This document shows, one piece after another, positions 15,701 through 44,946 of a DNA stretch of 64,000 nt. Under the pieces are notes generated by a model that was not told the origin of the DNA, ran no database searches, and worked only from the letters and a program-made list of their open reading frames with translations. Source of the stretch: Saccharicrinis carchari (GTDB taxonomy: Bacteria > Bacteroidota > Bacteroidia > Bacteroidales > Marinilabiliaceae); NCBI RefSeq assembly GCF_900182605.1, contig NZ_FXTB01000001.1:1-64000 (forward strand), written 5' to 3'. The translations under genes and the position numbers were made by a program. Position 1 is the stretch's first letter, and each line of letters starts with the position of its first letter.

Positions 15701-16125
15701 GTAACGGTTTTGCCTTGCTGCTGCACATTGGCAAGTGCTATCTCTGCACTGCTTGTTTGATTATCTTTTTTCAGCACAATGTACCTGTCAATAATTTCGT
15801 AGCTTATATCGGAACTGTTTAAAATTTGCTCCAATATCACATGAATATCCGAATCCTTGGTGTTGACCGATACATGCACCGAGGGATCGATTTCTTTACT
15901 GTCGTAAAAAAACCGGAATTCTGAGGTGTTTTCAATTTCCTCAAAAACCTCTTTAAGCATCACATTCTGGAAGTCCAGGGTCAGTTTTGTTGATTGCGAA
16001 TAGCTTGTTGAGGCCGAAGCCTGCACCAGGGCTATCGTTAAAAGCAGCCATGTAATTTTCATAACTCTTAAAAGTTTCGTGAAATGAAGGTTGCCGGAAC
16101 CTCCATCAGTTCTGTTTTTTTTCAT
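12763..16125 (-). CDS. susC: SusC/RagA TonB-dependent outer-membrane transporter with STN domain (PUL1)
   Basis: The product is the 1120-residue outer-membrane importer for the PUL1 glycan. The order is: a short basic leader, a signal peptide from about residue 22, an STN (secretin/TonB short N-terminal) domain at about 45-120 that signals to the FecR anti-sigma factor, a carboxypeptidase-regulatory-like domain (about 140-215), a plug with the SusC hallmark LDEVVVVGYG and VIVDGVES, then the beta-barrel ending in an aromatic residue. The STN domain with FecR and ECF sigma genes upstream indicates trans-envelope regulation. Residues 143-194 are identical to those of the PUL2 SusC although the rest is diverged. 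The leader on the opposite strand carries a predicted antisense RNA. Confidence 0.96.
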   Translation of the reverse strand: MKKNRTDGGSGNLHFTKLLRVMKITWLLLTIALVQASASTSYSQSTKLTLDFQNVMLKEVFEEIENTSEFRFFYDSKEIDPSVHVSVNTKDSDIHVILEQILNSSDISYEIIDRYIVLKKDNQTSSAEIALANVQQQGKTVTGTIRDANGEPIPGASIVVKGTTTGTISDMDGNFTLSGVPEDATLQFSFVGMNSVEVSAAGQSTFNIVLQEETMGLDEVVVVGYGVQKKVNVTGSVATVDSKMLENRPMSSVSAGLSGLLPGVYVKQTSGLPGGDGGSIRIRGTGTLNNSSPMVIVDGVESSMNEISPEDIGSISVLKDAASAAIYGSKAANGVILITTKSGKVGVPQVRYSGDFGWQAATDLPEYLGSAEYAEMYNEALLNDGKTERFTPEDIALFKNGTDPYGHPNTDWLDMLYSGSGFQTSHNVSLAGGTENTTYRTSVNYQKQEGIIEHTGKDRYNVRTNVTSSPYSWLTSNVNLSYTRQSVYEPNNAYVGGGLDQIIRQAYRIAPWIPYKYEDGTYGTISDGNPMAWIDQGKQIDKMQNFFLGVGSLTFTVTEGLTVKGTASIRTYKEDKNSLNKEIQYNPSKYHGPTKMEQLYTNTERITGDLVANYTKSFGGGHNIAAMVGYHAESYDYKRTKAYRENFPSTSLGDLNGGATKGMVAEGYTRELNMLSYFGRVNYDLNSKYLFEANLRYDASSRFHEDNRWGAFPSFSAGWRLSEENFMAGLRETVDNLKVRVSWGMLGNQDALNEYYPTIPTLSLGKDYPFNSQINSGAAIVNAKNKDLVWEKTTSWGIGLDIMLKSKINLTLDYYDRRTEDIIMKVPSPETFALSDFYDNVGEMSNKGFEATFQYNDKFGEVGFNFGGNFALNTNELISLAGQNQVIDGRYLRRIGEPVDVFYGYKTNGLYQSTQDIADWAENTLYGTSKIKPGDLRYVDVTGDKKVTSDDRTILGKSTPDFIFGFNLGANYKNFDIMALFQGTLGGYGYMDFDAVGAVSGDSSKPSALWKNRWTPSNTNTSVPRVTASTSGVSMPQNSTTEYWLRSTDFLRLKNLQIGYNIPKSVLQNVGISKVRIYYSGDNLLTFTNYLKGFDPEAPSGRGSGYPVVMVNSFGVNVTF

Positions 16126-16132
16126 AAGTTTG
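16125..16132 (+). promoter_or_regulatory. Antisense TAnnTTTG box abutting susC start (PUL1)
   Basis: TAAGTTTG matches the Bacteroidota -7 box (TAnnTTTG). It lies on the strand opposite to susC, overlapping the first base of the susC ATG. A clear -33 TTG at the usual 19-21 nt spacing is not visible. The same arrangement (TACCTTTG) occurs at the PUL2 susC start. Confidence 0.4.
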
Positions 16133-16180
16133 CATTGTTAATGTTCGATAATGAAGCCAATGGGCTTTTTATTGATTTTT

Positions 16181-16329
16181 AACCTGGACTATTCATAAAT
16201 TTTCGAAAATATGAATGGAGTCCGGGTTAACCCCGACTTAGTTGAACTTTAATTTTTGATAAAAAATTATTAGTGAAACGTAATCGCTACCGGAGGTAGA
16301 AATAATTCTTTAATTATTTGGGTTTTAAA
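16181..16329 (+). repeat. Palindromic leader element upstream of susC (PUL1)
   Basis: Element 1 of the family. Outer stem AACCTGGACT (16181-16190) pairs with AGTCCGGGTT (16219-16228). Inner stem ATTCATA (16191-16197) pairs with TATGAAT (16210-16216), with a conserved 2-nt bulge between. Then come TAACCCCGAC, an AT-rich part, a weaker second stem (CGA..TTA with TAA..TCG near 16286), and CTACCGGAGGTAGAAATAAT followed by AATTATTTGGG. The same order is found at 34114-34275. Confidence 0.65.
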
Positions 16330-16331
16330 AC

Positions 16332-16351
16332 GGAAACACGACCATGTTTCC
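16332..16351 (+). other. Hairpin preceding antisense terminator (PUL1)
   Basis: GGAAACA (16332-16338) pairs with TGTTTCC (16345-16351) around a 6-nt loop, directly before the terminator hairpin. PUL2 shows the same hairpin-then-terminator order at its FecR-susC gap. Confidence 0.55.
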
Positions 16352-16358
16352 TTTACGG

Positions 16359-16393
16359 ACGGGAGATGTTGGTAGCATTTCCCGTTTTTTTTT
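16359..16393 (+). terminator. Plus-strand intrinsic terminator in FecR-susC gap (PUL1)
   Basis: A 10-bp stem (16359-16368 with 16376-16385, including one G-T pair) and 7-nt loop are followed directly by nine T on the plus strand. Both flanking genes run on the minus strand, so the terminator serves no annotated gene and points to antisense transcription. On the minus strand the stem is preceded, not followed, by the A/T tract. Confidence 0.8.
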
Positions 16394-32140: not shown

Positions 32141-34006
32141 TTATTCAGCAGTATTATTTTCCATTACTACCGAATTGGGTTCCGACAGCTCGGTGCGTAC
32201 CGCCTTGCTCCAATCCATTTCCTTCTCAAAATGATTGTTGCTGATTGTTATGTTATCCACTTTCTCGAAGAAGAAGGGATGCTTGTTCCAATGAAAAGGC
32301 TCAAACTCGCTGTTGTACTTGATAGTATTGTTGCGGAAGATAAGTCCGTTGGTGGATTTGGCATACAGTATAGGCTGGTCGAACATCTCAAAGGTGTTGT
32401 CTTCTATCACAATACCGGAATGAAAAAACTGCTCCTGATCTTCCAGGTTGGGGATTTCGGGGTAAATGGAAATGGCGGCATTGGTAAACTGGTAATATGC
32501 CGTGAGCCCGTTGATAAACTGGTTGTTTTTTATCAGCACGTCCTTGCATGGTCCTGTCTCGTACCAACCGTTACAGTCGCCGCAAAGCAGGATGGCCGTT
32601 CCATGGGTATGGTCGAAAATGTTGTTTTCGCAAACCACTCTTTTTGGCGTGCTGAACAAAGTGCCACGTGCCCGGTTGTTGCGCACGGTATTGTTGGAGA
32701 ATAGCACCTCGGGCGTCCACGTCAGGTTTTCTATCCCGTACTTGCCCATTTCCGAAATTTGCTGCGGCAGTGCATCGGCAAAGGTTATTTCAAATTCCTT
32801 GGCACCAAATTCGGTGGGCTTGTCAACGGCTTTGATCGATTGTAGGGTGTTGAGGTGTTGATCAACCAGTTCCATTTTTTCCGATTCCACAAATTGTACC
32901 TGATCCCCCGGCTCTCCCCATTTAAACCCCCAGGCCTGCGGATGCATATAGCGGGCTTGCAGGGTATGGTCGTCGATGCGTTTGGTTACCCTCAAATAAG
33001 TGCCGTGCACGTTGATGGCATCGTCGGCCATGCCTTCGTACAATCCGTTTTTAGATATGATGATGCCCTTGCACGCCGAAAAATGGGTGGCATCAGCCTG
33101 CGTGGTAAAAAAGCGCTCGTCGTCGTCGCCGCGCAGACAAACGTTAAAGCCGTCCAGGGTAATATTTTCGCTCATCTGCACCAGCAATCCCATGCCCTCA
33201 GCATAATGTACCGTAACATCCTTAAAGCCGGTGTTCAAACATTCGCTCACGAAAATACCGGGTGTGGGACGGTGGTAGGTGCGCAGCACATAGCGCTCGC
33301 CCGGTGAGGTGTGGTTTACCTGCTGCCAGCCTTTGATGCTGAGGGTGTTGGGCGACTTTTCACTTGCGGAAGCGGGGTCAAAGGCCACATCGGCCCTGAG
33401 GTAAGTAAGGCGTTTGTCGGCACGGAAGGCCATGGAGGTGAATGGTGTAAACTCGTAGCTTTCGCCCTCCACAACCAACTTGTTGTCCTGGATGCGGTAA
33501 TTCCCGGGCGGATATATCTCGGCCACCACTTCGTCGGCCTCCTTGTTAACCTTCGTTATCTTTAGCTGGCGCAGCGCGGGCACTTCATAATCGATGTGCA
33601 TGTTTTTTAGCGTTACGTTGCTGTTGTTCAGTAGGGCAAAGGGTATCATCCGGCCGTGGAAGATAAGATCCGAGCCCTGTCCATCGATGACGATGTTTTG
33701 CAGGTTCTCCAACGCGAAGCCTACTTTTTTGGGATTGTCCTGATCGTGGTTGGAGATGTAATACTCGCGGACAAAGGAACCCTCCTCGTAAAAATCGTAC
33801 CTGCCCTTGGGAAAAATAACGGTAACAAGGGATGTGTCTTTTCGAGCTTGCAGATGTTCAATAAGTTTAGCGGCAGCCGTTGATGCGTTTTCCTGTGAGT
33901 CAGGATCAACGCCAAATTCATTGAAGGAAATGGTGGTTTCAGCTGGTGTGCAGCCGAAGCCCACTAAAAGAAAAAGAGATAGGATAAAGATGGATGCTTG
34001 TTTCAT
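32141..34006 (-). CDS. GH110-like alpha-1,3-galactosidase lipoprotein (PUL2)
   Basis: The 621-residue protein is predicted to be an exo alpha-1,3-galactosidase of family GH110, which removes terminal alpha-1,3-Gal from B-antigen-type or linear structures. Lipobox Cys at about 19. The body is a right-handed parallel beta-helix with recurring Asn/Val-rich turns (NIVIDGQGSDLIFHG, NVTLKNMHIDYE). The ATHFSACKG segment, ADDAINVHGTY and the late NNTVRNNRARGTLFSTPK motif are shared with GH110 enzymes. It is in PUL2 upstream of GH95, with a structured element in its 292-nt upstream gap. The beta-helix is sure; GH110 is likely. Confidence 0.86.
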   Translation of the reverse strand: MKQASIFILSLFLLVGFGCTPAETTISFNEFGVDPDSQENASTAAAKLIEHLQARKDTSLVTVIFPKGRYDFYEEGSFVREYYISNHDQDNPKKVGFALENLQNIVIDGQGSDLIFHGRMIPFALLNNSNVTLKNMHIDYEVPALRQLKITKVNKEADEVVAEIYPPGNYRIQDNKLVVEGESYEFTPFTSMAFRADKRLTYLRADVAFDPASASEKSPNTLSIKGWQQVNHTSPGERYVLRTYHRPTPGIFVSECLNTGFKDVTVHYAEGMGLLVQMSENITLDGFNVCLRGDDDERFFTTQADATHFSACKGIIISKNGLYEGMADDAINVHGTYLRVTKRIDDHTLQARYMHPQAWGFKWGEPGDQVQFVESEKMELVDQHLNTLQSIKAVDKPTEFGAKEFEITFADALPQQISEMGKYGIENLTWTPEVLFSNNTVRNNRARGTLFSTPKRVVCENNIFDHTHGTAILLCGDCNGWYETGPCKDVLIKNNQFINGLTAYYQFTNAAISIYPEIPNLEDQEQFFHSGIVIEDNTFEMFDQPILYAKSTNGLIFRNNTIKYNSEFEPFHWNKHPFFFEKVDNITISNNHFEKEMDWSKAVRTELSEPNSVVMENNTAE

Positions 34007-34113
34007 TTTTTATGGTTTTAAAGGAGATGATTTGTTTGTTAACTGTATTTTGTGTGAATATATAATAAAAGCGGCTGAATCGTAATGAAACAGCCGTTTT
34101 TATCAGGATTAAT

Positions 34114-34275
34114 TAACCTGAACTATTCATAAATTATCCAAAATATGAATAAAGTTCAGGGTAACCCCGACAAAGCTGAAGTTAAACTTTTGAAAAAAGC
34201 TTACTGAAACTTTGTCGCTACCGAGGTAGAAATAATGCTAGAAACAACGTTAGACGTAGTCAATTATTTGGGTTA
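34114..34275 (+). repeat. Palindromic leader element upstream of GH110
   Basis: Element 2 of the family. Stem 1 CCTGAACT (34117-34124) pairs with AGTTCAGG (34153-34160). The inner stem ATTCATA/TATGAAT is retained with the same 2-nt bulge. Then come TAACCCCGAC, a second 8-bp stem CGACAAAG (34168-34175) with CTTTGTCG (34210-34217), then CTACCGAGGTAGAAATAAT and AATTATTTGGG. Compared with element 1, one G-C pair is replaced by A-T and one G-T by A-T. Confidence 0.7.
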
Positions 34276-34298
34276 AATGCACGGTAGTTACCGATGAG

Positions 34299-34757
34299 TT
34301 ATTTGTTAAACTCCGACACCTCAATTGTCCAGGTTTTTGAATCGCCGTTGGCGGCTCTTACGGTATAGGTATTTGTCGAGGTCCAATCGCCGGGCGTGCC
34401 CAATGCAGGGGAACTACCCTCGGGTATGATGCTGGCAGCGGAAGATATGGTAGTGTAGGCAATTATATCGCTTAATACCACATTGCTTCGCACAGCTTCG
34501 GTAAATTCACCATCGGCGGCCGGAACTGTTACACTGCATGTTACCGTATTGGAACTATTGTTAACTTCATAGTCGGTAACCATCATTTTAACTCTTAGCT
34601 TATCGCTGGTGCCCTCTTTTACTGACCAACGATATTCAAACTTAACGTTAATAATCTCAGCATCGCTATAGGTCGGCAAATCATCCAGTCCGCTGGTCAG
34701 GCAAGAACTGAGAAAGGACGTTGCGATAATCAGAAAAGCAATTTTTATATATTTCAT
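34299..34757 (-). CDS. Small PUL2 surface lipoprotein (DUF5018-like)
   Basis: A 152-residue lipoprotein (Cys at about 19, LSSC). The body is beta-rich and ends with NTYTVRAANGDSKTWTIEVSEFNK, a pattern of the DUF5018-like immunoglobulin-type domains often found in proteins behind SusD. It begins 25 nt after SusD in the same operon. By position it may be an extra surface glycan-binding protein, but no binding site can be identified. No enzymatic motif is seen. Confidence 0.82.
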   Translation of the reverse strand: MKYIKIAFLIIATSFLSSCLTSGLDDLPTYSDAEIINVKFEYRWSVKEGTSDKLRVKMMVTDYEVNNSSNTVTCSVTVPAADGEFTEAVRSNVVLSDIIAYTTISSAASIIPEGSSPALGTPGDWTSTNTYTVRAANGDSKTWTIEVSEFNK

Positions 34758-34782
34758 ATCTCAATAATTTATAACTGTTATA

Positions 34783-36510
34783 CTATTCCCAGCCGGGATT
34801 TTGATTGATGTTGGGATTTTCATTGGTTTCGCTTTTGGGTAATGGAAGTAAATACCTCCTGCTTGTAAAATTCCGATCGTTAGCTCCGGCCACCACCGGA
34901 ACCGGTATAATTTCAAAAGTTTTACCGTCTTCGCCGATGGAAATAGCCGTAGGGATTTCGCTTAGCTCGGGGATAACAGATAAATTATCTTCTTTGCCCC
35001 AACGCAACAATGACCAGTAGCGATCGTTTTCCTGAAGCAGATCGACTCGGCGTTCTATTTTGTAAGCATCCCACAATTCATCTATAGATATAGAGGTGCT
35101 CAATGGAGACAGACCACCATGTTCTACCCTTGTCATATTGATATATTCAATGGCGGTTTCCATGTTGGCGTTTGCGTCTATGCGCATTAGCAACTCTGCG
35201 TAGTTCAGATAAGCCCTTCCCAATCTAAGGATCGTATAGTGATAATCTGTGGGTACGTTGTAGTACAACCACTGTGCTTCATAAATAGCCTTCCTAAAAA
35301 CATAACCGCTCTTGGTCATATGCCTATCTTGCTGCACGTTGGAGGCATAGTGTACATTTCCGCCAATACGGGTGGTTAACAATGAGGTGTACATCATTGA
35401 GCTATCCTGAACAATACTCGCATAGAAACGCTTATCGCGATTTTTGTACATAGCGTCCTGTACCGATGACACATGGGGGACGAATGCTTGAAAATAGCTC
35501 GTCTGGTTCCAGGGTTTTGACTCCCCATCTGCATCATTTACCAAATAAGCATCTACCAATTGCTGTGGAGGGGTTTTTTCCAGCCATCCCTCAAGAGGTT
35601 TGTCAAGAGGCCATCTCTCCAAAACGCCTTCCGCTGCTTTGTCTCCTCCAAAATTAGGCACCAGAAATTGCATCCATGTATTGGACATCTGTGTGTTGGT
35701 GCTGAGCCTATACTGGGCTAAAATAATCTCAGGTGAACCTGATCCTCCTTCAAAGGTGTTAAACATTCCTTTGTAGTCCGAATCAAGTGCGTAGATACCC
35801 AAGGCAAAAAGATTTTCACTTGCGGTTTTGCCTGTTTGGTAGTAGGCATCCTTGTCGGCCGAATTATCAAGATAAGCCGCCCCGTGCAAAGCTACTTCTG
35901 CCAGCAGAGCGTAGGCTGCTCCTTTCCCGATGCGGCCGGTGGCCACTTGCGTTGGCAATAGGTCGGCGGCCATTTGTAGATCATTGGCGATAAAATCGTA
36001 GGTGTCTTTTATGCTTGCCGTGCGCGACAATAGCAAATCGTCTTCCGGATTCAGCACTTCTTCCACGATGATTATACGGCCAAACTTTCGGGCGGCGGTA
36101 AAATTAGTTACGGCTCTCAAAAAATAAGCTTCTCCCATCATCACGTCTTTGTCAGCTTCTGAAAAATTGGATTCCGCCACTTTCTCAAGTATCAAATTGC
36201 ATTTGCGGATATCGGAATAAATATTCCATCCAAAATTGTTTTCATTGGAAATTTTTTCCTGAACCATGTTGCTGGCACCCGACTGTGAGGGGTTTAAAAC
36301 CATATTGTCGGACCAGGCATCGTCTTGAATCATGTGTCCAAGAATGCCGTATGCTTCATTTACAAAGGCCCGAGCGGTAATGGCATCCGACCATACCACA
36401 TCGCCTGAAAACTTATCTAATGGTCTGGTATCCAGCTCGTCGTTACAACTGGCGAGCAGGAGTATGGACATGCAAAGCAAAATCCATGTTGATTTAATAT
36501 TTATTTTCAT
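34783..36510 (-). CDS. susD: SusD/RagB family glycan-binding lipoprotein (PUL2)
   Basis: The 575-residue surface lipoprotein partners with the PUL2 SusC. Lipobox Cys near 22 (LLASC) is followed by NDELDTRPLDKFSGDVVW, a standard SusD opening. The C-terminal half has LRLGRAYLNYAELLMRIDANAN, YKIERRVDLLQENDRYWSLLRWG and RRYLLPLPKSETNENPNINQNPGW, as in other RagB/SusD proteins. The gap to SusC is only 13 nt, clear evidence of co-transcription. It is distinct from the PUL1 SusD, in keeping with a different glycan. Confidence 0.95.
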   Translation of the reverse strand: MKINIKSTWILLCMSILLLASCNDELDTRPLDKFSGDVVWSDAITARAFVNEAYGILGHMIQDDAWSDNMVLNPSQSGASNMVQEKISNENNFGWNIYSDIRKCNLILEKVAESNFSEADKDVMMGEAYFLRAVTNFTAARKFGRIIIVEEVLNPEDDLLLSRTASIKDTYDFIANDLQMAADLLPTQVATGRIGKGAAYALLAEVALHGAAYLDNSADKDAYYQTGKTASENLFALGIYALDSDYKGMFNTFEGGSGSPEIILAQYRLSTNTQMSNTWMQFLVPNFGGDKAAEGVLERWPLDKPLEGWLEKTPPQQLVDAYLVNDADGESKPWNQTSYFQAFVPHVSSVQDAMYKNRDKRFYASIVQDSSMMYTSLLTTRIGGNVHYASNVQQDRHMTKSGYVFRKAIYEAQWLYYNVPTDYHYTILRLGRAYLNYAELLMRIDANANMETAIEYINMTRVEHGGLSPLSTSISIDELWDAYKIERRVDLLQENDRYWSLLRWGKEDNLSVIPELSEIPTAISIGEDGKTFEIIPVPVVAGANDRNFTSRRYLLPLPKSETNENPNINQNPGWE

Positions 36511-36523
36511 AATTGGTTAATTT

Positions 36524-39500
36524 TTAGAAGGTTACGTTTAATGATACCGAATAGGTGCGCTGGATTGGATACGCATATCCTGCATCTGATATAATTTCGG
36601 GATCAAAATACTTGGTTACATCAGATATTGTAAACAGGTTTGTTCCTGAGAGAGAAAGCCTCATAGCAGAGATTCCGTTGAGGTTTTTAACCACATCTTT
36701 AAAGTCATAGCCTACCTGAAGCGACTTTAGGCGCAGATACGATGCATTGTGGTACCAGAAATCAGCCGCAACCGTATAGTTTTGGCCAGCGTTTAAATTC
36801 TGATATGTTGACAAACGCGGAAAAGCTGCATTGGTATTGTCGGTTCGCCAGTAATCTTTCTGAAAGTCGTAGGTCATGTATTCTGTATTGGATCCTCTCA
36901 TAAATTCATTCAACTGCATATAGCGTTTACCTGTTCCTTGAAACAATCCGTTCATAAATATATTTTTGTACTCCAAACTAAAGTCGATACCGTACGAGAA
37001 AGAGGGGAAGGTAGGCTTTCCTATCCTGCGGAAATCTTCGCCATCAATTTTTCCGTCTCCGTTTGCATCTTGAAAAAACAAATCGCCCGGTTTGAGTTCA
37101 TTGGCGGTTTCGCGCCTTGGGTTCGTTAATATCTGATCGATGGATTGGTATAGACCATTTGTTTTATAGGCTCTTCCATAATAGTTTTTGGTGTGTGTTA
37201 TCCTTTTGTTAGGATCCATCAAATCCGACATTGTTTCGTCTTCCTTCTTCTCCCACAACTCATCATAACTAGTGAAGTTAGCACCCACCTCGTATTTTAG
37301 CTCGCCAACAGTGTCTTCCCATCTTAGGCTTAACTCATATCCGGCACGGCGATGGGCACTCTCGCTTTTAACCAATGGCAAGTCTTTTCCCAAGGGGGTA
37401 GTGTACTGATTCTGAGGTGATATTAAATAACCCTGCGTCCTGTAATAATAGTAATCGAAGGTAGCCGTAAGCTTGTTCCGTAGAAATGCCGCATCAAAAC
37501 CTATATCCAGCACTTCGCGCTCATACCAGCTAAGGTCATTTGATACCAGTGGCCCTTCGCTGAAACCGGTTTGAAAATTTCCATCGACAACAAGCGCTTG
37601 GGGATCCATTTCATATACGGGCAGATAGCCGAATCGGGCGCCTGCTTCCAGTCCTACAATACCATATGAGGTTCTTACCTTTAAAAAGTCAATTATACCA
37701 TTATCTTTTAAGTCTTGCATAAACGATTCTTCGGATATTGTCCAAGCAACGGCGCCCGATGGAAAAAATCCGGTTCTTTCGCCGGGTGCAAAATTGTCGG
37801 ATTTGTCCACCCTAAAGTTACCCTCGAACATATATTTGCGGTCAAAATCGTATTTAACACGGCCTACATAACCTATACGAGCAGATTCGCGGCCAGCACC
37901 GTAATTGGTTTGGGTAGAAGCATCACCAGCAAACAATTGGTCGAAACTCGACGATAAATATTTCTCCCGTTGTGCCCAAAAGTTTTCTCCATTCGATCGG
38001 AAGAAGCTGTAAACCCCTTGTAATTCAAAACTATGGCGGTCGATGGATTTTTTGTACATCAAATTAGCGTCGAAAGAGGTTTGGGTGCTGTGATCATTGG
38101 TCATCCGCAGGTAGTTGCTGGTATACGGTACCGCATCTCCGTTTGGTTGATACTGAGGTGCTTTGGACTGGAATATTTTTTGGTTATAATCGCTATAACG
38201 CACATTTGCCAATGCTCCAACCTTTAGTCCCGGTAGGCTTGGAACGTCCCAGTTGGCATTTAATTGGGTGTTGACATACTTGTCCTTTTCATCGTTATAT
38301 CCCGCCCTTTCATCTAATATAACCAAAGGGTGTATTGATATGGAACTGTAAGTACCATCGGGATTAAATGCGGCGTAATTTGGTTTTACGTTCTGAATCT
38401 GGCTCCAAACAGTATAATCGCCCCAAACTGTTGGATTCCGATTCTCCAATGCTCCATCGATATTTATTCCCACTTCCAAACCTATATCGTCGAAGCGGGT
38501 AGATATGTTGCTTCGTAAATTGGCACGGTCGTACTCGTTGTTATGCGACTGCTTAAATATGGAGTTTTGTTTAAGGTAGCCTACTGCCGCATAATAGTTA
38601 ATACCGTTATCGCTAACGCCTGACATTGATAAATTATGGCGGTGTCCGGAAGCAAAGTCATTAAGAGCCAGGTCTCTCCAATCTGTGTTTGCGGTAATGC
38701 TTCCATAAGGGTCGGAATTGTTAGCTATCTTATTAATCTCATCCTGCGAATAGATAGGGTCGCGTCCGTCGTATGCAGCAGCTTGGTTTGCAGCGTTAAC
38801 ATAATCCAAGGCATTTATTTTATCGGGAAACACAGCGGGCTGACTGAAATCCACACCTCCCGAATACTGAATCTTAATATCCCCAGCTTGACCTCTTTTG
38901 GTTTGAACAAGTACAATCCCGTCTCCCGCTCGCGAACCGTAAACGGCTGTGGCGCTGGCGTCTTTTAGGATGCTTATTTTGTCGATATCGGACGAGTTAA
39001 GGGAATTAAAGTCGCTTTCGTCTCTAATGACGCCATCAATTACGTAAAGAGGCTTTTCGCCACCACGGATTGAAATACGTGGTTTTGAGCCCGGTGCTCC
39101 TCCGCCCGATTGAATGACTACCCCGGCTGTACGGCCTTGCAAGGCATCGCCCGTATTTGTAAAAGGCAGCTCGTCAATTTTATCAGTTTGTAAGGAAGTA
39201 ACCGACCCTACGGTCATCCTGGTGGAGGTAGTGCCATAACCAACAACTATAACCTCATCCAAGCCCAGGCTTTCTTCCTGCAGCACAATGTCAAAGGTGT
39301 TTTGATTCGTTACCGACGCTTCTACGGTATTCATGCCCACAAATGAAAATTGAAGCGTTGCATCTTCGGGTACACCCGACAGGGTAAAATTCCCGTCCAT
39401 GTCGCTGATAGTGCCGGTGGTGGTACCTTTCACCACGATGGAAGCACCAGGTATAGGCTCTCCGTTTGCATCGCGGATAGTGCCGCTAACGGTTCTTCCA

Positions 39501-39910
39501 TCCTGCTGAAGATGGCTTAAGGTAATGGAGGAAGTGCTGTCCGCATCGTTGCGCATCACCACCACATTATCACCTATAATTTGGTAATTGTACTCCCCGT
39601 CGGCAAACACCTTGGCTAGGGCTTCCTCCAACGAAGCGTCTTCAAGGTTCAGGGAGTAGTGTTTTTCCAGGTCCATCTGGTTATCTTTAAAAAAGAAGCC
39701 GAAGTCGCTTTGGGCTTCTATCGCGCGGAAAACATCCAGAATGGTGGCGTTTTCCAGGCTAATGTTTCGAAGACGCTGCTGGGCATCTGTAGTTTCGGCC
39801 GTAAGGGTAAGGCCGAAAAAAAGCAGCATAAGGGCTGATAATTTCATAATTCGACAGATTTTTTGAAGGCGATGCCTGTTAGGACATGAACCTACACGAT
39901 TTTTTTTCAT
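36524..39910 (-). CDS. susC: SusC/RagA TonB-dependent transporter with STN domain (PUL2)
   Basis: A 1128-residue outer-membrane importer. A basic leader precedes a signal peptide (about 22-43). The STN domain lies at about 45-120 (ISLENATILDVFRAIEAQSDFGFFF), followed by a carboxypeptidase-regulatory-like domain (about 143-215), a plug beginning with LDEVIVVGYG, and the beta-barrel ending with VSLNVTF. The STN domain together with the FecR and ECF genes upstream predicts signal-dependent transcription. Residues 143-194 are identical to the PUL1 SusC. The start codon, a run of A, and the AACAATRCAAA leader are also shared between the two. Confidence 0.96.
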   Translation of the reverse strand: MKKNRVGSCPNRHRLQKICRIMKLSALMLLFFGLTLTAETTDAQQRLRNISLENATILDVFRAIEAQSDFGFFFKDNQMDLEKHYSLNLEDASLEEALAKVFADGEYNYQIIGDNVVVMRNDADSTSSITLSHLQQDGRTVSGTIRDANGEPIPGASIVVKGTTTGTISDMDGNFTLSGVPEDATLQFSFVGMNTVEASVTNQNTFDIVLQEESLGLDEVIVVGYGTTSTRMTVGSVTSLQTDKIDELPFTNTGDALQGRTAGVVIQSGGGAPGSKPRISIRGGEKPLYVIDGVIRDESDFNSLNSSDIDKISILKDASATAVYGSRAGDGIVLVQTKRGQAGDIKIQYSGGVDFSQPAVFPDKINALDYVNAANQAAAYDGRDPIYSQDEINKIANNSDPYGSITANTDWRDLALNDFASGHRHNLSMSGVSDNGINYYAAVGYLKQNSIFKQSHNNEYDRANLRSNISTRFDDIGLEVGINIDGALENRNPTVWGDYTVWSQIQNVKPNYAAFNPDGTYSSISIHPLVILDERAGYNDEKDKYVNTQLNANWDVPSLPGLKVGALANVRYSDYNQKIFQSKAPQYQPNGDAVPYTSNYLRMTNDHSTQTSFDANLMYKKSIDRHSFELQGVYSFFRSNGENFWAQREKYLSSSFDQLFAGDASTQTNYGAGRESARIGYVGRVKYDFDRKYMFEGNFRVDKSDNFAPGERTGFFPSGAVAWTISEESFMQDLKDNGIIDFLKVRTSYGIVGLEAGARFGYLPVYEMDPQALVVDGNFQTGFSEGPLVSNDLSWYEREVLDIGFDAAFLRNKLTATFDYYYYRTQGYLISPQNQYTTPLGKDLPLVKSESAHRRAGYELSLRWEDTVGELKYEVGANFTSYDELWEKKEDETMSDLMDPNKRITHTKNYYGRAYKTNGLYQSIDQILTNPRRETANELKPGDLFFQDANGDGKIDGEDFRRIGKPTFPSFSYGIDFSLEYKNIFMNGLFQGTGKRYMQLNEFMRGSNTEYMTYDFQKDYWRTDNTNAAFPRLSTYQNLNAGQNYTVAADFWYHNASYLRLKSLQVGYDFKDVVKNLNGISAMRLSLSGTNLFTISDVTKYFDPEIISDAGYAYPIQRTYSVSLNVTF

Positions 39911-39917
39911 ACCTTTG
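39910..39917 (+). promoter_or_regulatory. Antisense TAnnTTTG box abutting susC start (PUL2)
   Basis: TACCTTTG on the plus strand overlaps the first base of the susC start codon, in the same place as TAAGTTTG in PUL1. It would drive an RNA antisense to the susC leader. No -33 TTG at the usual spacing is visible. Confidence 0.45.
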
Positions 39918-39923
39918 TATTGT

Positions 39924-40010
39924 TTTAATTACACATTATGAAGCTGTTGACGCAGCTTCGTTATTGATTGTTAATCAGGGCACTTCGTTGACGCGGAGTG
40001 CCTTTTTTTT
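39924..40010 (+). ncRNA. Predicted cis-antisense RNA at susC leader (PUL2)
   Basis: An RNA of about 87 nt would begin just after the TACCTTTG box and end at the eight-T tract. It would contain hairpin 1 (39940-39959, stem GAAGCTG/CAGCTTC) and the terminator hairpin (39979-40002). Both hairpins carry the same 6-nt loop, TTGACG. The RNA is fully complementary to the susC mRNA leader, where the same stems would show CGTCAA loops. This resembles the cis-encoded RNAs known to repress susC-type operons in Bacteroides. Terminator and stems are visible; expression is inferred. Confidence 0.5.
39979..40010 (+). terminator. Plus-strand intrinsic terminator in FecR-susC gap (PUL2)
   Basis: A 9-bp stem (39979-39987 with 39994-40002, one G-T pair), a 6-nt loop TTGACG and eight T directly after. 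Both neighbouring genes are on the minus strand, so it would terminate only antisense transcripts. Confidence 0.82.
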
Positions 40011-40053
40011 AGGTGTTTAAATTCACTTGTTTTTTTAGGTCATATAAGGAGTT

Positions 40054-41025
40054 TTAATTAAAATTTACAATGCAACTGCCATCTTCTAAATCCTGAATAG
40101 TGTAACTCAAATTAGCAGATATCTTTAATACTTTAAGTATATGCTCCAAGCTGGTGCGCCGTTTTATTACGCCCGAAAATAGCTCCTTCTTCACCTTGTC
40201 GTCGGCAAATACGAATTTAACGTCGTACCACTCTTCCAACTCTTTGGCTATTTGTTCCAATGTTTTATTTACAAACACAAACTTGCCCTGTTTCCAGGCG
40301 GTAATAAAGTCGGCATCTGCTTTGGCTAGCGAGAGCTTTTTGGTACTCAAGTCGAGAGAGAACATGGTTCCGGGTTTCAGGCCATCCAGAATTACTTTGT
40401 TGTGGGTACTAAATTCAATAGCACCTTCAAATAGTGCTGTGGACAAAAGATGGTCCTCAGGATTGTACTTTACATTAAAGCGGGTGCCCAGGTCGAGGAG
40501 TCGGTAATGGCCTGTCTGCACCCAAAACTCACGAGTTTCGTTATGGGGTACGTCAAAGTAGGCCTCACCTTCCAAATCTACTTCTACTTTTTTAGTACCG
40601 TAGGTGGTAATAGTAGCTTTAGAAGAAGAGTTGAGCCAGATGTTGCTGCCATCGGCCAGGGTAACCTGAGAGATATTGCCTTTTGGTGCCGAAAAAACCA
40701 TGGTTTCAGGCGCGGGCTGCCACAAACCGGGAATTAAAATAGATGATGCCAACAATGCCACTAACAGCGCGGCGGCGGTGGCAGCAATGCTTTGCCATAG
40801 TCGGATGCGTTTTTCGGGATGGATTGTTTTCCAAAAGGCTTTGAAACTTTTTAACTTTTCTGCCGATGAAGTTTCGCGATGCACCATGTTGTTGGCTACC
40901 CACAGTTTCTCAAAAGCCATGAATGCTTTCTTCTTTTCTGCGTCGTGTTGCAGCTCTGCAAAAAAGGTGGCACGCTCTTTTCCGGTAATCTTATTTCGGA
41001 TTATATGTAAAAATTGTTCTTCCAA
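40054..41025 (-). CDS. fecR: FecR-family anti-sigma factor (PUL2)
   Basis: The 323-residue membrane protein has a cytoplasmic N-terminus, one transmembrane helix (about 80-103, SIAATAAALLVALLASSILI), and the periplasmic FecR domain (QVTLADGSNIWLNSSSKATITTYG, LDLGTRFNVKY). The C-terminal region is DUF4974-like and ends near FSGVIKRRTSLEHILKVL. It is expected to bind the PUL2 ECF sigma factor and receive the signal from the SusC STN domain. The start at 41025 is a TTG; no in-frame ATG occurs upstream before a stop. The gap to the sigma gene (673 nt) is very long for such a pair. Confidence 0.92.
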   Translation of the reverse strand: MEEQFLHIIRNKITGKERATFFAELQHDAEKKKAFMAFEKLWVANNMVHRETSSAEKLKSFKAFWKTIHPEKRIRLWQSIAATAAALLVALLASSILIPGLWQPAPETMVFSAPKGNISQVTLADGSNIWLNSSSKATITTYGTKKVEVDLEGEAYFDVPHNETREFWVQTGHYRLLDLGTRFNVKYNPEDHLLSTALFEGAIEFSTHNKVILDGLKPGTMFSLDLSTKKLSLAKADADFITAWKQGKFVFVNKTLEQIAKELEEWYDVKFVFADDKVKKELFSGVIKRRTSLEHILKVLKISANLSYTIQDLEDGSCIVNFN

Positions 41026-41698
41026 TGTTTTGTGTTTTATATTCCCGCCTAATTAAATTTCTGGCGGGGGGATGAACTTTCAGTTCAGTTGTGTTTAGTG
41101 TTTAAAATATAAGGTTCAAAGTTTGTATGGTTGTTTTACAATTACTTTAGCCTTTCTTAACACTAAACACATTCAAGCGCTGATACCCTATCAAAAAAAG
41201 TGTTTTTTTTAAATAAATTTACAATTATTTACATGTGTGAGTTTAAGGCGTTGTATATAAGTGCATTGCGAGTTGGTCTTTAAGATGAGAAAAAGATGGT
41301 GCATTGTTTGCGTAAAAAGATGTCTCGCTTCGTTGGCACGATAACGGTGGATGTTGTCATTCCCACTGAAGTTTGTAAAAAGCGATGGAAAGGCTTACAA
41401 GCACCCCGTTTGATGCGCTGTGCCTACGCATCATCCACCCCTCCTTAAAAAAGGAGGGGAATCCGTTGATAGGCAAACCTATCATCACGTTATTATATCT
41501 CGTTGCAAATCAGATTTAACTTTTTAAAAGTTGCAGTCCTGACAAGCATATGAGTAGTATAATAGTAAGATTTTCTCTCGAAGACGGCTCTTCCCTTTCC
41601 CAATTTTGAAGGGAAGGGGAAGTACTGGTGCGCAGCGTCAGAGATGGGGTAGTTTGTTTGGCAAATAAGGATTTGTCTTTTTAATAACAACTGCTCAT
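41026..41698. other. Gene-free 673 bp between sigma and anti-sigma genes
   Basis: No supportable gene. At about 41433-41472 it contains the second copy of the CATCCACCCC palindromic repeat. At about 41591-41622 there is a CCCTTCCC...GGGAAGGGG hairpin. The rest shows no recognisable feature. It mirrors the repeat-filled gap at the same place in PUL1. Confidence 0.55.
41433..41472. repeat. Palindromic intergenic repeat, copy 2 of 2
   Basis: CATCCA followed by CCCCTCCTT / AAGGAGGGG and GAATCC, matching 186-222 in layout. Changed stem bases on both sides keep the pairing. Confidence 0.6.
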
Positions 41699-42274
41699 TT
41701 ACAAACCTAAAAAGCCCAAAACGGCCTGTACCGCAGGTAAATAATCTTTTAAGTCTTTCCTAAGAATTTTCAATGCCTTGGATATGCGGGCTTCTACTGT
41801 TTTGGGGCTGAGCTCCAGCTTGTCGGCAATTTGCTGGTAGCTTAAGCTCTCAAAACGGTTAAGCTTAAAAGTTGTACGGACGTTTTCGGGAAGGCGATCG
41901 ATAGCTTCATCTACCTTTTCTATCAGCGATTCCAATTCACTGTACGGGTCGCCAAATGATTGGAGTGCTTCCTGCCTGTATCGCACTTCCGGGATGAGGT
42001 AATCGCGGTTGTTTCGCAGTATAATCTCTTGCTGCCGTAAATGGTTTAGGCACGCGTTTTTAGTAATGGTATAAAGGTAATTGCGTAGGTTGGTTTTGAT
42101 ATGGAGCTCTTTGCGGCATTCCCATAGTTTAGCAAAGGTATCCTGAACTAAGCCATGCGCTGTTTCGTGCTCACCAATAAAACCCAACGCCAAATGAAAA
42201 AGCATATCGAAATAGTCGATATACACTGTTTCAAAGGCTTTTTTGTTTCCTTTTATTAAAGCATGCACAAGCAT
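41699..42274 (-). CDS. ECF RNA polymerase sigma factor (PUL2)
   Basis: A 191-residue sigma factor with region 2 at about 15-85 (YFDMLFHLALGF, ETAHGLVQDTFAKLWECRKEL, NLRNYLYTITKNACLNHLR). Region 4 is at about 120-180 (RLPENVRTTFKLNRFESLSYQQIADKLELSPKTVEARISKALKILR). It should direct transcription of PUL2 upon release by FecR. A TAnnTTTG box lies about 38 nt upstream of its ATG. It is clearly different in sequence from the PUL1 sigma factor, so cross-talk is not expected, though not excluded. Confidence 0.94.
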   Translation of the reverse strand: MLVHALIKGNKKAFETVYIDYFDMLFHLALGFIGEHETAHGLVQDTFAKLWECRKELHIKTNLRNYLYTITKNACLNHLRQQEIILRNNRDYLIPEVRYRQEALQSFGDPYSELESLIEKVDEAIDRLPENVRTTFKLNRFESLSYQQIADKLELSPKTVEARISKALKILRKDLKDYLPAVQAVLGFLGL

Positions 42275-42643
42275 AGTAGGTAAATTCTTTTTTTAATTTT
42301 TTTCAAACAAACAAATGTAAATATAATTTGATTTTAAGTAGGGATATAAATTTAAAGAATTTGATTTCGATTGCTGCTATCAATACTGCCGGTCCGATTT
42401 GCCCATCTCAATTGTAGCACTTCAGTGGTTTCTTTCTTTAATTATTTCACAATATATACTTTTTAAACAGTAAAGAACCTATCTGTTTATCAAATTGACA
42501 AAAGAGTATAGTCAAATTCTTTATCGTTAAAATAATATTTTGTACATTAAAGCTGCTATTTTATAAGCTTATTGTTGTGTTTGCTTGTTAACGAAAACAG
42601 AATCTCACTCTGTTATGGGTACTCACCAAAATATGAACCTATC
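42275..42643. other. Divergent intergenic region, sigma gene / DUF2851 gene
   Basis: This AT-rich 369 bp lies between divergent genes. On the minus strand a TACATTTG box at 42312-42319 fits a promoter for the PUL2 sigma gene. No clear TAnnTTTG box was found for DUF2851. Nothing else was recognised. Confidence 0.45.
42312..42319 (-). promoter_or_regulatory. -7 box for the PUL2 sigma gene
   Basis: CAAATGTA on the plus strand is TACATTTG on the minus strand, matching TAnnTTTG, and would give a leader of about 30 nt. No clear -33 element. Confidence 0.45.
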
Positions 42644-43921
42644 ATGACCGAAGAGTTTATCCATTATATATGGTACTATAAAAAGTATAATTCTTTGCCC
42701 TTGCGCACTGAGTGTAATCAAGAAATAGAGGTGATAAATCCGGGTGAATCCAATAATCATGCGGGACCTGATTTTTTTAACGCAAAAATAAAAATCGGGG
42801 GAACGCTTTGGGCAGGAAACGTAGAGGTTCATATACGAGCTTCCGACTGGTTCGAACATATGCACCAAACAGACAAGGCCTATGATAATGTTATTTTGCA
42901 TGTGGTGGAGGTCAGTGATGCTACGATAAAGCGAAGCAATGGGGAACCTATCCCTGTTTTAAAATTGCAGTGCCCTGTTCGTCTCTATCGCGAATACCTT
43001 AGACTCAAAAGCAGTGTTCAGTGGTTGGCCTGTGCAGGGAAGCTCCACAATATAAATCCTCTTGAAATATCTTTGTGGCTGCAGCGCATGTTGGTAGAAC
43101 GCCTGGAGTATAAAATGTATAACATACAACGCATCTTAGATCAAACCACACAAAATTGGGACGAGACATTTTATAGATTGCTCTTCCGGAGCTTTGGTTT
43201 CGGTGTAAATGGCGATCCCTTCGCGCTGTTGGCGCAATCTATCCCTTTAAAGGTATTGCTAAAATATTCCGACAAGCTTCCGCTGCTCGAAGCCCTCTTG
43301 TTTGGGCAGGCCGGTTTTTTGATGGGGGATTTTAAGGATGCCTATCTCATCTCGCTAAAAAAAGACTATCGTTTTTTGCAACAAAAACATGGCCTTCATC
43401 CAATAGAAGTTCATTTATGGAGGTTTTTACGCCTGCGTCCTTCAAATTTCCCTACTATCCGTATTGCCCAACTTGCTGCCCTGCTAGTTGAGTTAAAGGG
43501 CGTTTTTGGGCGCCTCATAAACAATGCCCGTTTAAAGGATATTGAGCATCTGCTGGAGGTGAACGTCTCAGAATATTGGCGGGAACATTATGTGATGCAG
43601 AAAAAGTCGGATAAAAAAAACAAGAGTCTGGGTAGTAATTCTAAAAATGGGATTATTATCAATACCATAGTTCCTTATTTATTTGCTTTTGGCACTATCA
43701 CGGGCAACCAGACAGTTGTAAAACGTGCTTTGGATTGGTTAATAAACTTAAAAGCAGAAAATAATTCGGTTTTAGACAAGTGGAAGGAACAGAATATAAA
43801 GGTAAACAATGCCGGAGATTCTCAAGCTTTAATATATTTGTCGAACAATTATTGCAAACCTAAAAAATGTTTGCGGTGCAGTATCGGCCATAAGGTTTTG
43901 ACCATTAAAAACACGGAGTGA
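42644..43921 (+). CDS. DUF2851 family protein
   Basis: A 425-residue protein typical of Bacteroidota and of unknown function, recognised by the N-terminal block MTEEFIHYIWYYKKYNSLPL and NPGESNNHAGPDFFNAKIKIGGTLWAGNVEVHI. The latter has a PD-(D/E)xK nuclease-like look (GPDFFNAKI, GNVEVH), so a nuclease role is possible. The C-terminus has Cys-x-x-Cys near the end (CLRCSIG). The ATG at 42644 is chosen because the family begins with MTEEF; the frame is open to 42572. Its TGA overlaps the GTG of the K+ channel gene by 4 nt. Confidence 0.87.
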   Translation: MTEEFIHYIWYYKKYNSLPLRTECNQEIEVINPGESNNHAGPDFFNAKIKIGGTLWAGNVEVHIRASDWFEHMHQTDKAYDNVILHVVEVSDATIKRSNGEPIPVLKLQCPVRLYREYLRLKSSVQWLACAGKLHNINPLEISLWLQRMLVERLEYKMYNIQRILDQTTQNWDETFYRLLFRSFGFGVNGDPFALLAQSIPLKVLLKYSDKLPLLEALLFGQAGFLMGDFKDAYLISLKKDYRFLQQKHGLHPIEVHLWRFLRLRPSNFPTIRIAQLAALLVELKGVFGRLINNARLKDIEHLLEVNVSEYWREHYVMQKKSDKKNKSLGSNSKNGIIINTIVPYLFAFGTITGNQTVVKRALDWLINLKAENNSVLDKWKEQNIKVNNAGDSQALIYLSNNYCKPKKCLRCSIGHKVLTIKNTE

Positions 43922-44946
43922 AGCAAAGTGTATCATATTTAGATAATTTTAGGACTATTGTATATGGATTGGTTGCGCTGTTCCTTATTGTACTGATGGG
44001 TAGCGTTGGTTTTATGGCCATCGAAAAGTATGCGTTTATAGATGCCCTTTATATGACGGTGATTACAGTTTCTACCGTGGGCTTTCGCGAGGTGTTCCCT
44101 TTATCGGATGCAGGCAAATTATTTACAGTTGTACTTATTATTTTTAGTTTAGGTAGTTTTGGTTATGTTATTACTTCTGTAACCCGTTTGGTTGTGGAGG
44201 GTGCCTTACGGCAATCGTATAAACAATATAAGGTGAATAAAAAAATTGTTAAACTCGAAGACCATATTATTGTATGCGGATATGGCAGAAACGGTTATCA
44301 GGCTTGTATAGAGCTTAAGGAACACGGCGAGAAATTTGTGATTGTAGACAAACGTGATAATGTGGTAACCCGAATTTTGAAAGATCCCGATTTACTTTAC
44401 GTTCAGGGCGATGCCAGCTCGGAAGATGTGTTGGATGCTGCACAAATACGCCGCGCCAAAGCGTTAATTACTGCGCTACCCAGCGATGCCGATAATATTT
44501 TTGTGGTGCTCACCGCGCGCGAAATGAACCCAAAGCTAAAAATCATCAGCCGGGCAAGTCAATTTCGTTCCGATATTAAATTGCGTCATGCCGGTGCCAA
44601 TAACGTTATTATGCCAGATAGGATTGGCGGGCAACGGATGGCCAAGTTGGTAACGCAACCCGATGTGGTGGAGTTTGTAGAGTATATCTTATTGCAAAAG
44701 AGCAAAGAAGTGAAACTAATTGAGGTGGAGTGCAATGCTATGAGCGCCCAGAGCGCTGATAAAACTATCCTTGAAATGAACCTGCGTAAAAAGACCGGGG
44801 CTAACCTGATGGGGCTGAAAACGCCGGAGGGTACGTACATCTATAACCCATCGCCTTTACTTAAAATATCGCCCAGAGATAAGTTATTTGTGTTGGGTAC
44901 CGACGAGCAGATAGAGAAATTTATGGAGGTTTTAACAGAAAAATAA
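43918..44946 (+). CDS. Two-helix potassium channel with TrkA-N and TrkA-C domains
   Basis: The 342-residue inner-membrane protein has TM1 (about 13-34), a pore loop and TM2 (about 66-87). The selectivity filter reads TVGFRE (about 53-58) rather than TVGYGD. This is followed by a cytoplasmic RCK/TrkA-N Rossmann domain (HIIVCGYGRNGYQACIEL, VDKRD, QGDASSEDVL) and a TrkA-C domain (about 255-340). It probably conducts K+ under control of a nucleotide or ion ligand. Translation starts at GTG, overlapping the DUF2851 stop by 4 nt. Confidence 0.88.
   Translation: MKQSVSYLDNFRTIVYGLVALFLIVLMGSVGFMAIEKYAFIDALYMTVITVSTVGFREVFPLSDAGKLFTVVLIIFSLGSFGYVITSVTRLVVEGALRQSYKQYKVNKKIVKLEDHIIVCGYGRNGYQACIELKEHGEKFVIVDKRDNVVTRILKDPDLLYVQGDASSEDVLDAAQIRRAKALITALPSDADNIFVVLTAREMNPKLKIISRASQFRSDIKLRHAGANNVIMPDRIGGQRMAKLVTQPDVVEFVEYILLQKSKEVKLIEVECNAMSAQSADKTILEMNLRKKTGANLMGLKTPEGTYIYNPSPLLKISPRDKLFVLGTDEQIEKFMEVLTEK

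Follow-up and report, generated by a model that had tools for sequence, protein, structure and literature searches.

The cis-antisense RNA DonS and the PUL-associated cis-antisense RNAs of Bacteroides were reportedly described by Cao et al. in 2016. According to passages of a later account, DonS belongs to a family of antisense RNAs, 78-128 nt long, that are directed against susC homologues (PMC7366714), and repression of its own PUL is reported for one PUL-associated antisense RNA (PMC7366714 and PMC10994844, passages). For B. thetaiotaomicron, 32 such RNAs are given in a passage of PMC10994844. A passage on Flavobacterium places the -7 box at -12 to -5, and the antisense RNA list of the same paper is offered as a starting point for such studies (PMC9723704), while a cis-acting intergenic region in PUL repression is mentioned in a passage of PMC5635687. 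The FopS and GibS sRNAs are portrayed in passages of PMC11697453 as multicopy RNAs with a single-stranded 5' seed that act on several PULs; FopS RNAs target the start region of susC mRNA, and, according to the same source, a FopS model was deposited in Rfam.

A candidate antisense RNA in the window, the whole 64,000-nucleotide stretch of DNA analyzed here, resembles DonS in lying opposite the start and leader of a susC homologue within a PUL, a likeness of position only, and in its predicted length of 90 nt, which falls within 78-128 nt and includes its own terminator (Table 1). Judged against descriptions of DonS, the arrangement differs in that it is found outside Bacteroides (a Prolixibacteraceae MAG, Sphingobacterium), is tied to FecR-linked SusC proteins with an N-terminal STN extension, and combines a box anchored at the start codon with a two-hairpin form and, at some loci, twin loops. 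A DonS-type promoter is of the housekeeping type (sigma ABfr) with -33 and -7 elements; here the -7 box stands at a fixed offset and the -33 element was not seen. FopS shares the target region, but the window RNA has no Rfam match to a multicopy, 5'-seeded family of that kind: Rfam gave no match at the gathering threshold and no FopS/GibS-like family at E up to 1, on the assumption that the copy searched holds the FopS model.

Complementary loops on antisense and target hairpins also recall the kissing antisense RNAs of plasmids, ColE1 RNAI/RNAII and R1 CopA/CopT, which control replication and are not known to carry the same loop on both of their hairpins. Among the titles, abstract beginnings and passages searched, nothing was found that describes a box at the start codon, twin loops or a link to FecR, which is weak evidence of novelty because most subscription journals lay outside that scope. 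The new part is the breadth, the anchored promoter and the twin loops; DonS-like RNAs were already known in Bacteroides.

A predicted antisense RNA in the fecR-susC gap

On the minus strand, the PUL is ordered ECF sigma factor, fecR, susC, susD, a DUF5018-related gene, a beta-helix gene with GLAA-B domains and a GH95 enzyme, and the plus strand of the 143-base gap between fecR and susC holds a box, a hairpin and a terminator (Table 1). The spacer between the sigma factor gene and fecR (41026-41698) is about 670 bases without a convincing ORF and contains G+C-rich hairpins by eye.

Table 1. Features of the PUL and of the predicted antisense RNA (window coordinates)
Feature	Coordinates	Strand	Remarks
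ECF-type sigma factor gene	41699..42274	-	PUL member
fecR-type anti-sigma factor gene	40054..41025	-	PUL member
susC (STN, CarbopepD_reg_2, Plug)	36524..39910	-	
susD	34783..36510	-	
susC 5' leader, fecR stop to susC start	39911..40053	-	presumed target
Antisense -7-type box	39910..39917	+	TACCTTTG (sense CAAAGGTATG); one-base overlap with susC start codon
Predicted antisense RNA, ~90 nt	39922..40011	+	start from box position, end from T-run
Hairpin 1	39938..39961	+	7 Watson-Crick pairs 39940-39946/39953-39959 plus outer pairs
Loop 1	39946..39953	+	GTTGACGC
Intrinsic terminator	39979..40010	+	stem 39979-40002, T8 run 40003-40010, -16.9 kcal/mol
Loop 2	39987..39994	+	GTTGACGC, identical to loop 1

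The earlier note had described a sequence at the susC start codon, a hairpin at 39940-39959, a terminator at 39979-40010 and identical loops in the two hairpins, and all of these are present, the minus strand exposing CGTCAA in both loops. The note's extent for the RNA, 39924-40010, needs a small change: a plus-strand RNA of nearly that length is predicted, but its likely start is 39922, two bases earlier, if the box is placed at -12 to -5 as in the Flavobacterium passage of PMC9723704. Box and start codon share one base because the first base of the box complements the A of the start (CAT at 39908-39910). The segment 39924-40010 folds at -32.5 kcal/mol, compared with -15.8 (sd 2.9) for shuffled sequences (z -5.8; 0/200 as good), and the hairpin and terminator rank at the top of 13 terminator-like sites in 34000-44000, where shuffles lead one to expect 10.1. 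The 8-mer of the loops is not rare in itself, with three occurrences in the window versus 1.3 expected; what stands out is its location in both loops.

Neither TTTG nor TTG was seen at the -33 position in the susC codons, and no CAAA or CAA peak occurs 19-26 nt inside susC. Upstream of the terminator, no convincing sense promoter motif for susC was found. A small ORF of nine codons within the antisense RNA (ATG at 39938, plus strand, by eye) was considered and dropped because the similar leaders L078 and L080, also by eye, lack the ATG.

Read from its sequence, the window is very likely to specify a short antisense RNA, beginning at the first susC codon and able to pair with the susC leader. 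The preferred explanation, to which a probability of roughly 0.8 is assigned, is a cis-antisense RNA of about 90 nt, made from a housekeeping-type promoter at the susC start codon, that would repress susC by pairing in the manner of DonS, with a first contact that is probably loop-loop. Transcription itself, its start point, repression and kissing are steps that we infer. Transcription of the plus strand would begin at a promoter whose -7 box touches the start codon and would stop, short of the fecR end, at the intrinsic terminator, giving an RNA complementary to about -12 to -101 of the presumed susC mRNA leader. Its largely unpaired 5' tail would lie opposite A/T-rich sequence immediately 5' to the susC AUG, the ribosome landing site. 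Either of the two equivalent loops could make the first contact, and pairing would repress the susC operon through blocked initiation and/or duplex cleavage, perhaps with a contribution from RNA-polymerase interference; because promoter and start codon lie so close, transcription of either unit would probably disfavor the other. The PUL would be kept silent until the sigma/FecR switch fires. By analogy with the reported action of DonS, and with that of FopS at susC start sites, repression of susC is the most likely function.

Recurrence at FecR-linked SusC genes

All 31 leaders of the 31 SusC proteins over the family cut-off in this genome were read. Eight of these proteins follow a fecR gene, and all eight have an N-terminal extension, in which Pfam STN scores over its cut-off in seven and weakly in L030; the domain is absent from two non-FecR SusC proteins scanned as controls. 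Seven of the eight leaders (L003, L004, L011, the window locus, L030, L031 and L065) carry both the box, CAAANNT directly followed by ATG, and an antisense terminator. L004 was scored at a later start; in L003 the score rests on a weak terminator at -50, and about 235-270 bases upstream there is a stronger one. The eighth, L022, has neither element. None of the 23 other leaders has the box, and an antisense hairpin with a T-run (-8 kcal/mol or better) is found in one of them within 260 bases (L012, at -206) and in none within 200.

To these were added 88 leaders from relatives, drawn from the matches listed (29 returned loci and 59 further regions, 48 of which were picked since the match reached the N-terminus and 11 since it did not), giving a main set of 119 leaders. 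With upstream fecR called by a profile built from the window FecR and its hits, 71 are FecR-linked and 48 are not. The start was taken as the first in-frame ATG unless a later in-frame ATG carried the box, which moved eight loci; at first ATGs only, the box counts are 50/71 and 1/48. A perfect box at the same offset is present in 57 of the 71 FecR-linked leaders versus 2 of the 48 others (Fisher 7e-18, with related loci treated as independent), and 11 more of the 71 have five of the six box bases. An antisense terminator is present in 65/71 versus 3/48 (Fisher 2e-22, with the same treatment of related loci), and both elements occur together in 54 of the 71. Within the FecR-linked leaders, the box falls at offset -7 in 57, and no other offset between -80 and +60 has more than one. 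For background, ORFs of 150 codons or more were taken from 400 kb of sequence in two of these genomes; the first ATG carries the box in 2 of the 261. The predicted RNAs of the relatives (n=65) measure 47-151 nt with a median of 83, so that some fall outside 78-128 nt.

Six of the 71 FecR-linked leaders have no scored terminator and 14 no perfect box. The earlier note took absence of the terminator and -7 box in close relatives that keep the PUL as counting against the antisense RNA; with relatives judged by their SusC, one or both are missing or imperfect in some. Box and hairpins without a scored terminator are seen in L088 and L110, and L036 has five of the six box bases. Both elements are missing from L035, a same-genus leader (G004) counted among the 48, which also lacks fecR and the N-terminal extension and whose SusC is 45% identical to the window SusC from residue 103 on; it looks as if the whole control module was lost or never gained. 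In L110 (G014), which has the box and both hairpins, the T-run comes after the upstream hairpin when the sense strand is read, which gives the terminator the opposite orientation. Two leaders, L115 and L117, carry the box and the antisense terminator although no upstream fecR was detected, and the RNA is thus not strictly bound to FecR.

Further genomes were added in three ways. From G167, which belongs to another family of the same order, 22 of 31 matches were taken and one was dropped for want of an ATG. Each of the remaining 21 is FecR-linked, with the box in 15 and the terminator in 14. Sphingobacterium siyangense CGMCC 1.6855 and a Prolixibacteraceae MAG (G179/G180), whose SusC (32% identity) was the nearest of three SusC relatives from a contig scan, supplied 30 leaders of 106 matches: box and terminator occur in 9/14 and 11/14 of those linked to FecR, and each in 0/16 of those not so linked. 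One MAG leader belongs to both the earlier and this set (L062 is L220), and the four FecR-linked leaders of S. siyangense have one box and two terminators. For the S. siyangense SusC of L221, a terminator is predicted 107 nt upstream of the start. A class-wide draw of 119 genomes yielded 27 with a match and 28 loci that were read, two of them from G167 and counted there. Six of the 28 have no ATG; 20 of the remaining 22 are FecR-linked, with the box in 7/20 and the terminator in 10/20, and four of the boxes lie outside the order (L149, L151, L152 and L156). On the sequence evidence, the same arrangement is found at most FecR-linked SusC genes examined in related Bacteroidota.

Twin loops, box and strand

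A locus was called a twin when, besides the terminator, it has a second hairpin of -3 kcal/mol or better and a run of six or more bases is common to the loops of the two. In the main set, 40 of the 65 leaders with a terminator have a second hairpin, and 12 of the 40 are twins versus 1.35 expected when loops are re-paired between loci (0/5000). In a second set (G167 plus the class draw), the figures are 4/14 versus 0.48, with L200 and L204 sharing the same loops; in a third (G179/G180), 1/6 (P 0.17), the twin being the 8-mer GTGACAGC. Given these counts, 16/54 in the first two sets and 1/6 in the third, most two-hairpin loci lack twins. With one leader per group under a stricter clustering (28 groups), 5.8 twins are counted versus 0.6 (P 0.002 at the smallest observed count); a first, coarser clustering, which merged 34 of the 71 loci into one group, gave 2.7 versus 0.6 (P 0.098 at the smallest observed count).

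A protein partner for the twin loops, comparable to the RNA-binding protein RbpB of FopS/GibS in B. thetaiotaomicron, in place of loop-to-loop pairing, is unlikely but has something to recommend it. Terminator apices reading GTTNNNGC or GCNNNAAC occur in 36 of the 65 leader terminators but, across 400 kb of G000 and G004, in only 8 of 211 other terminators of -10 kcal/mol or better (5 of 77 with the limit at -13), and such sharing across loci fits a common partner. However, the twin loops differ by locus (TTGACG in the window; elsewhere TTGGCG, TTGGAG, TTCCAG, TTGCCG, CTGCAA, CTCCAC, CGTCAA, CGCCAA and CGGCAA), their middle bases varying between loci yet matching between both loops of one locus (16/54 loci). 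Furthermore, for three loop types the antisense strand carries one form at some loci and its complement at others (TTGACG/CGTCAA, TTGGCG/CGCCAA and TTGCCG/CGGCAA), unlike a protein site, which would be on one strand; conservation of the loop:loop duplex itself would be expected to give both forms. That twin loops recur and covary lends the idea of loop-loop contact indirect support.

Other ideas about the loops were rejected. U-turn (YUNR) loops are not enriched as a common feature (24/65 leader versus 92/211 background terminators); PUL-specific insulation by loops finds 7 of 193 within-genome pairs sharing a 6-mer versus 8.0 expected (P 0.46); and for a DNA-binding site at a fixed helical phase, the two loops of the 12 main-set twins lie between 28 and 42 nt apart. 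Self-complementary loop pairs number 0/54, with only 0.9 expected.

It is improbable that CAAANNTATG is a translation-initiation signal of this class of SusC and that the terminator only stops stray antisense transcription from entering fecR. The box was defined at the start codon and has no -33 element alongside, and an A-run follows the ATG in most box-bearing genes, each of the seven bases after it being A in 48-57 of the 57 box-bearing FecR-linked leaders; on the antisense strand these bases form a T-run just upstream of the box. Yet the box is seldom present in other SusC genes of the same genomes (2/48 and 0/16), and it is absent (0/5) from receptors whose fecR ends no more than 20 bases from their start (L161, L163, L164, L165 and L171). 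In G167, box and terminator co-occur (13 leaders with both, 2 and 1 with a single element, 5 with neither; p 0.0055), so that leaders without a box are mostly without a terminator, and a bare insulator would need no conserved upstream hairpin with a matching loop.

Support for a structured RNA came from an alignment (A2) of nine leaders with similar hairpins, chosen by eye, whose SusC N-terminal parts are 33-44% identical to that of the window. Double compensatory changes occur at 13 of its 24 pairs, 4/10 in hairpin 1 and 9/14 in the terminator, and its covariation score is 0.547 versus 0.249 when shuffled (0/500). Cells are paired in 94.9% versus 80.8% in shuffles and 31-48% with partners slid, the advantage over the slid controls being inflated because the structure was derived from these same sequences. 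The leaders of the two closest SusC proteins (L033 and L034, 45-46%) have the box, two hairpins and the terminator in other sequence and were left out of A2; adding them gives a consensus of 22 pairs, of which 16 show double changes and some are broken in these two.

Inverted repeats were also sought with G-U and A-C scored equally, the controls being given lower stem cut-offs so that they yielded stems. On the antisense strand, stems of the 71 FecR-linked leaders contain 107 G-U and 12 A-C pairs, with 54 loci leaning to G-U and 3 to A-C, compared with ratios of 359:191 in shuffled leaders, 29:40 in non-FecR leaders and 49:59 inside susC. The bias is repeated in thirteen G167 leaders (29:4) and in twelve from Sphingobacterium and the MAG (26:2). 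Since an excess of G-U over A-C on the antisense strand indicates that selection sees the antisense RNA, and structure in the sense strand would give the reverse bias, the structure is assigned to the antisense strand. It is accordingly very improbable that the functional RNA is the susC mRNA leader, its hairpins a sense-strand protein site or attenuator and antisense transcription incidental: the same hairpins do fold on the minus strand (-23.3 and -28.3 kcal/mol) and sense-oriented terminators occur in 5/71 FecR-linked leaders, including L110, and in 3/48 others, but stem departures that are G-U antisense are A-C mismatches in the sense strand, and the T-runs and -7 box point to the antisense strand.

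Comparison of sequences thus reveals a conserved antisense transcription unit opposite susC together with its RNA structure; same-offset box and terminator, compensatory changes and the G-U/A-C asymmetry support the antisense RNA that the earlier note had proposed. On a broader reading, which is held tentatively, a class-wide family of antisense RNAs might control most FecR/sigma-type SusC importers in Bacteroidia. Promoters anchored at start codons would make the two units mutually exclusive, and the mRNA would be found by kissing of two hairpins, often with the same loop; the loop:loop duplex would be the conserved thing, each half being free to lie on either strand, and a pair of identical loops would double the contacts and prevent self-kissing. 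If true, importer operons of a large class in other Bacteroidota would regularly include a repression layer known from gut Bacteroides, one that could be found from DNA by its fixed signature of box, ATG and terminator. Which PULs are held down by antisense RNA would become testable genome by genome, and the loops would provide a natural series of variants for studying bacterial RNA-RNA recognition. Most of these bacteria are not known to have Hfq.

Genome searches with the covariance model

The earlier note had also put forward a covariance search with the two-hairpin form, and the A2 model, of which the box is not part, did match other SusC leaders. In 61 genomes it has 25 matches, the one at the window locus spanning 39922-40013; 17 lie antisense just upstream of SusC starts, nine of these being the model's own members, and 16 of the 17 are FecR-linked and 15 have a perfect box. 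All 12 matches with E < 1e-7 are antisense SusC leaders, nine that built the model and three that did not. The 16 matches beyond the members divide into eight SusC leaders and eight weaker ones away from SusC (E 3e-6 to 6e-4; L186, L188, L189, L191, L192, L194, L195 and L199), which may be chance hairpin pairs or unrelated small RNAs.

At 16125-16393 (plus strand), a similar region belongs to a second SusC of the window, a paralogue with 36% identity that starts at 16125 and bears the box TAAGTTTG at its start codon. A plus-strand terminator with the loop GTTGGTAGC lies about 235-270 bases on from this start, so the locus may give rise to a longer antisense RNA, about 257 nt in length.
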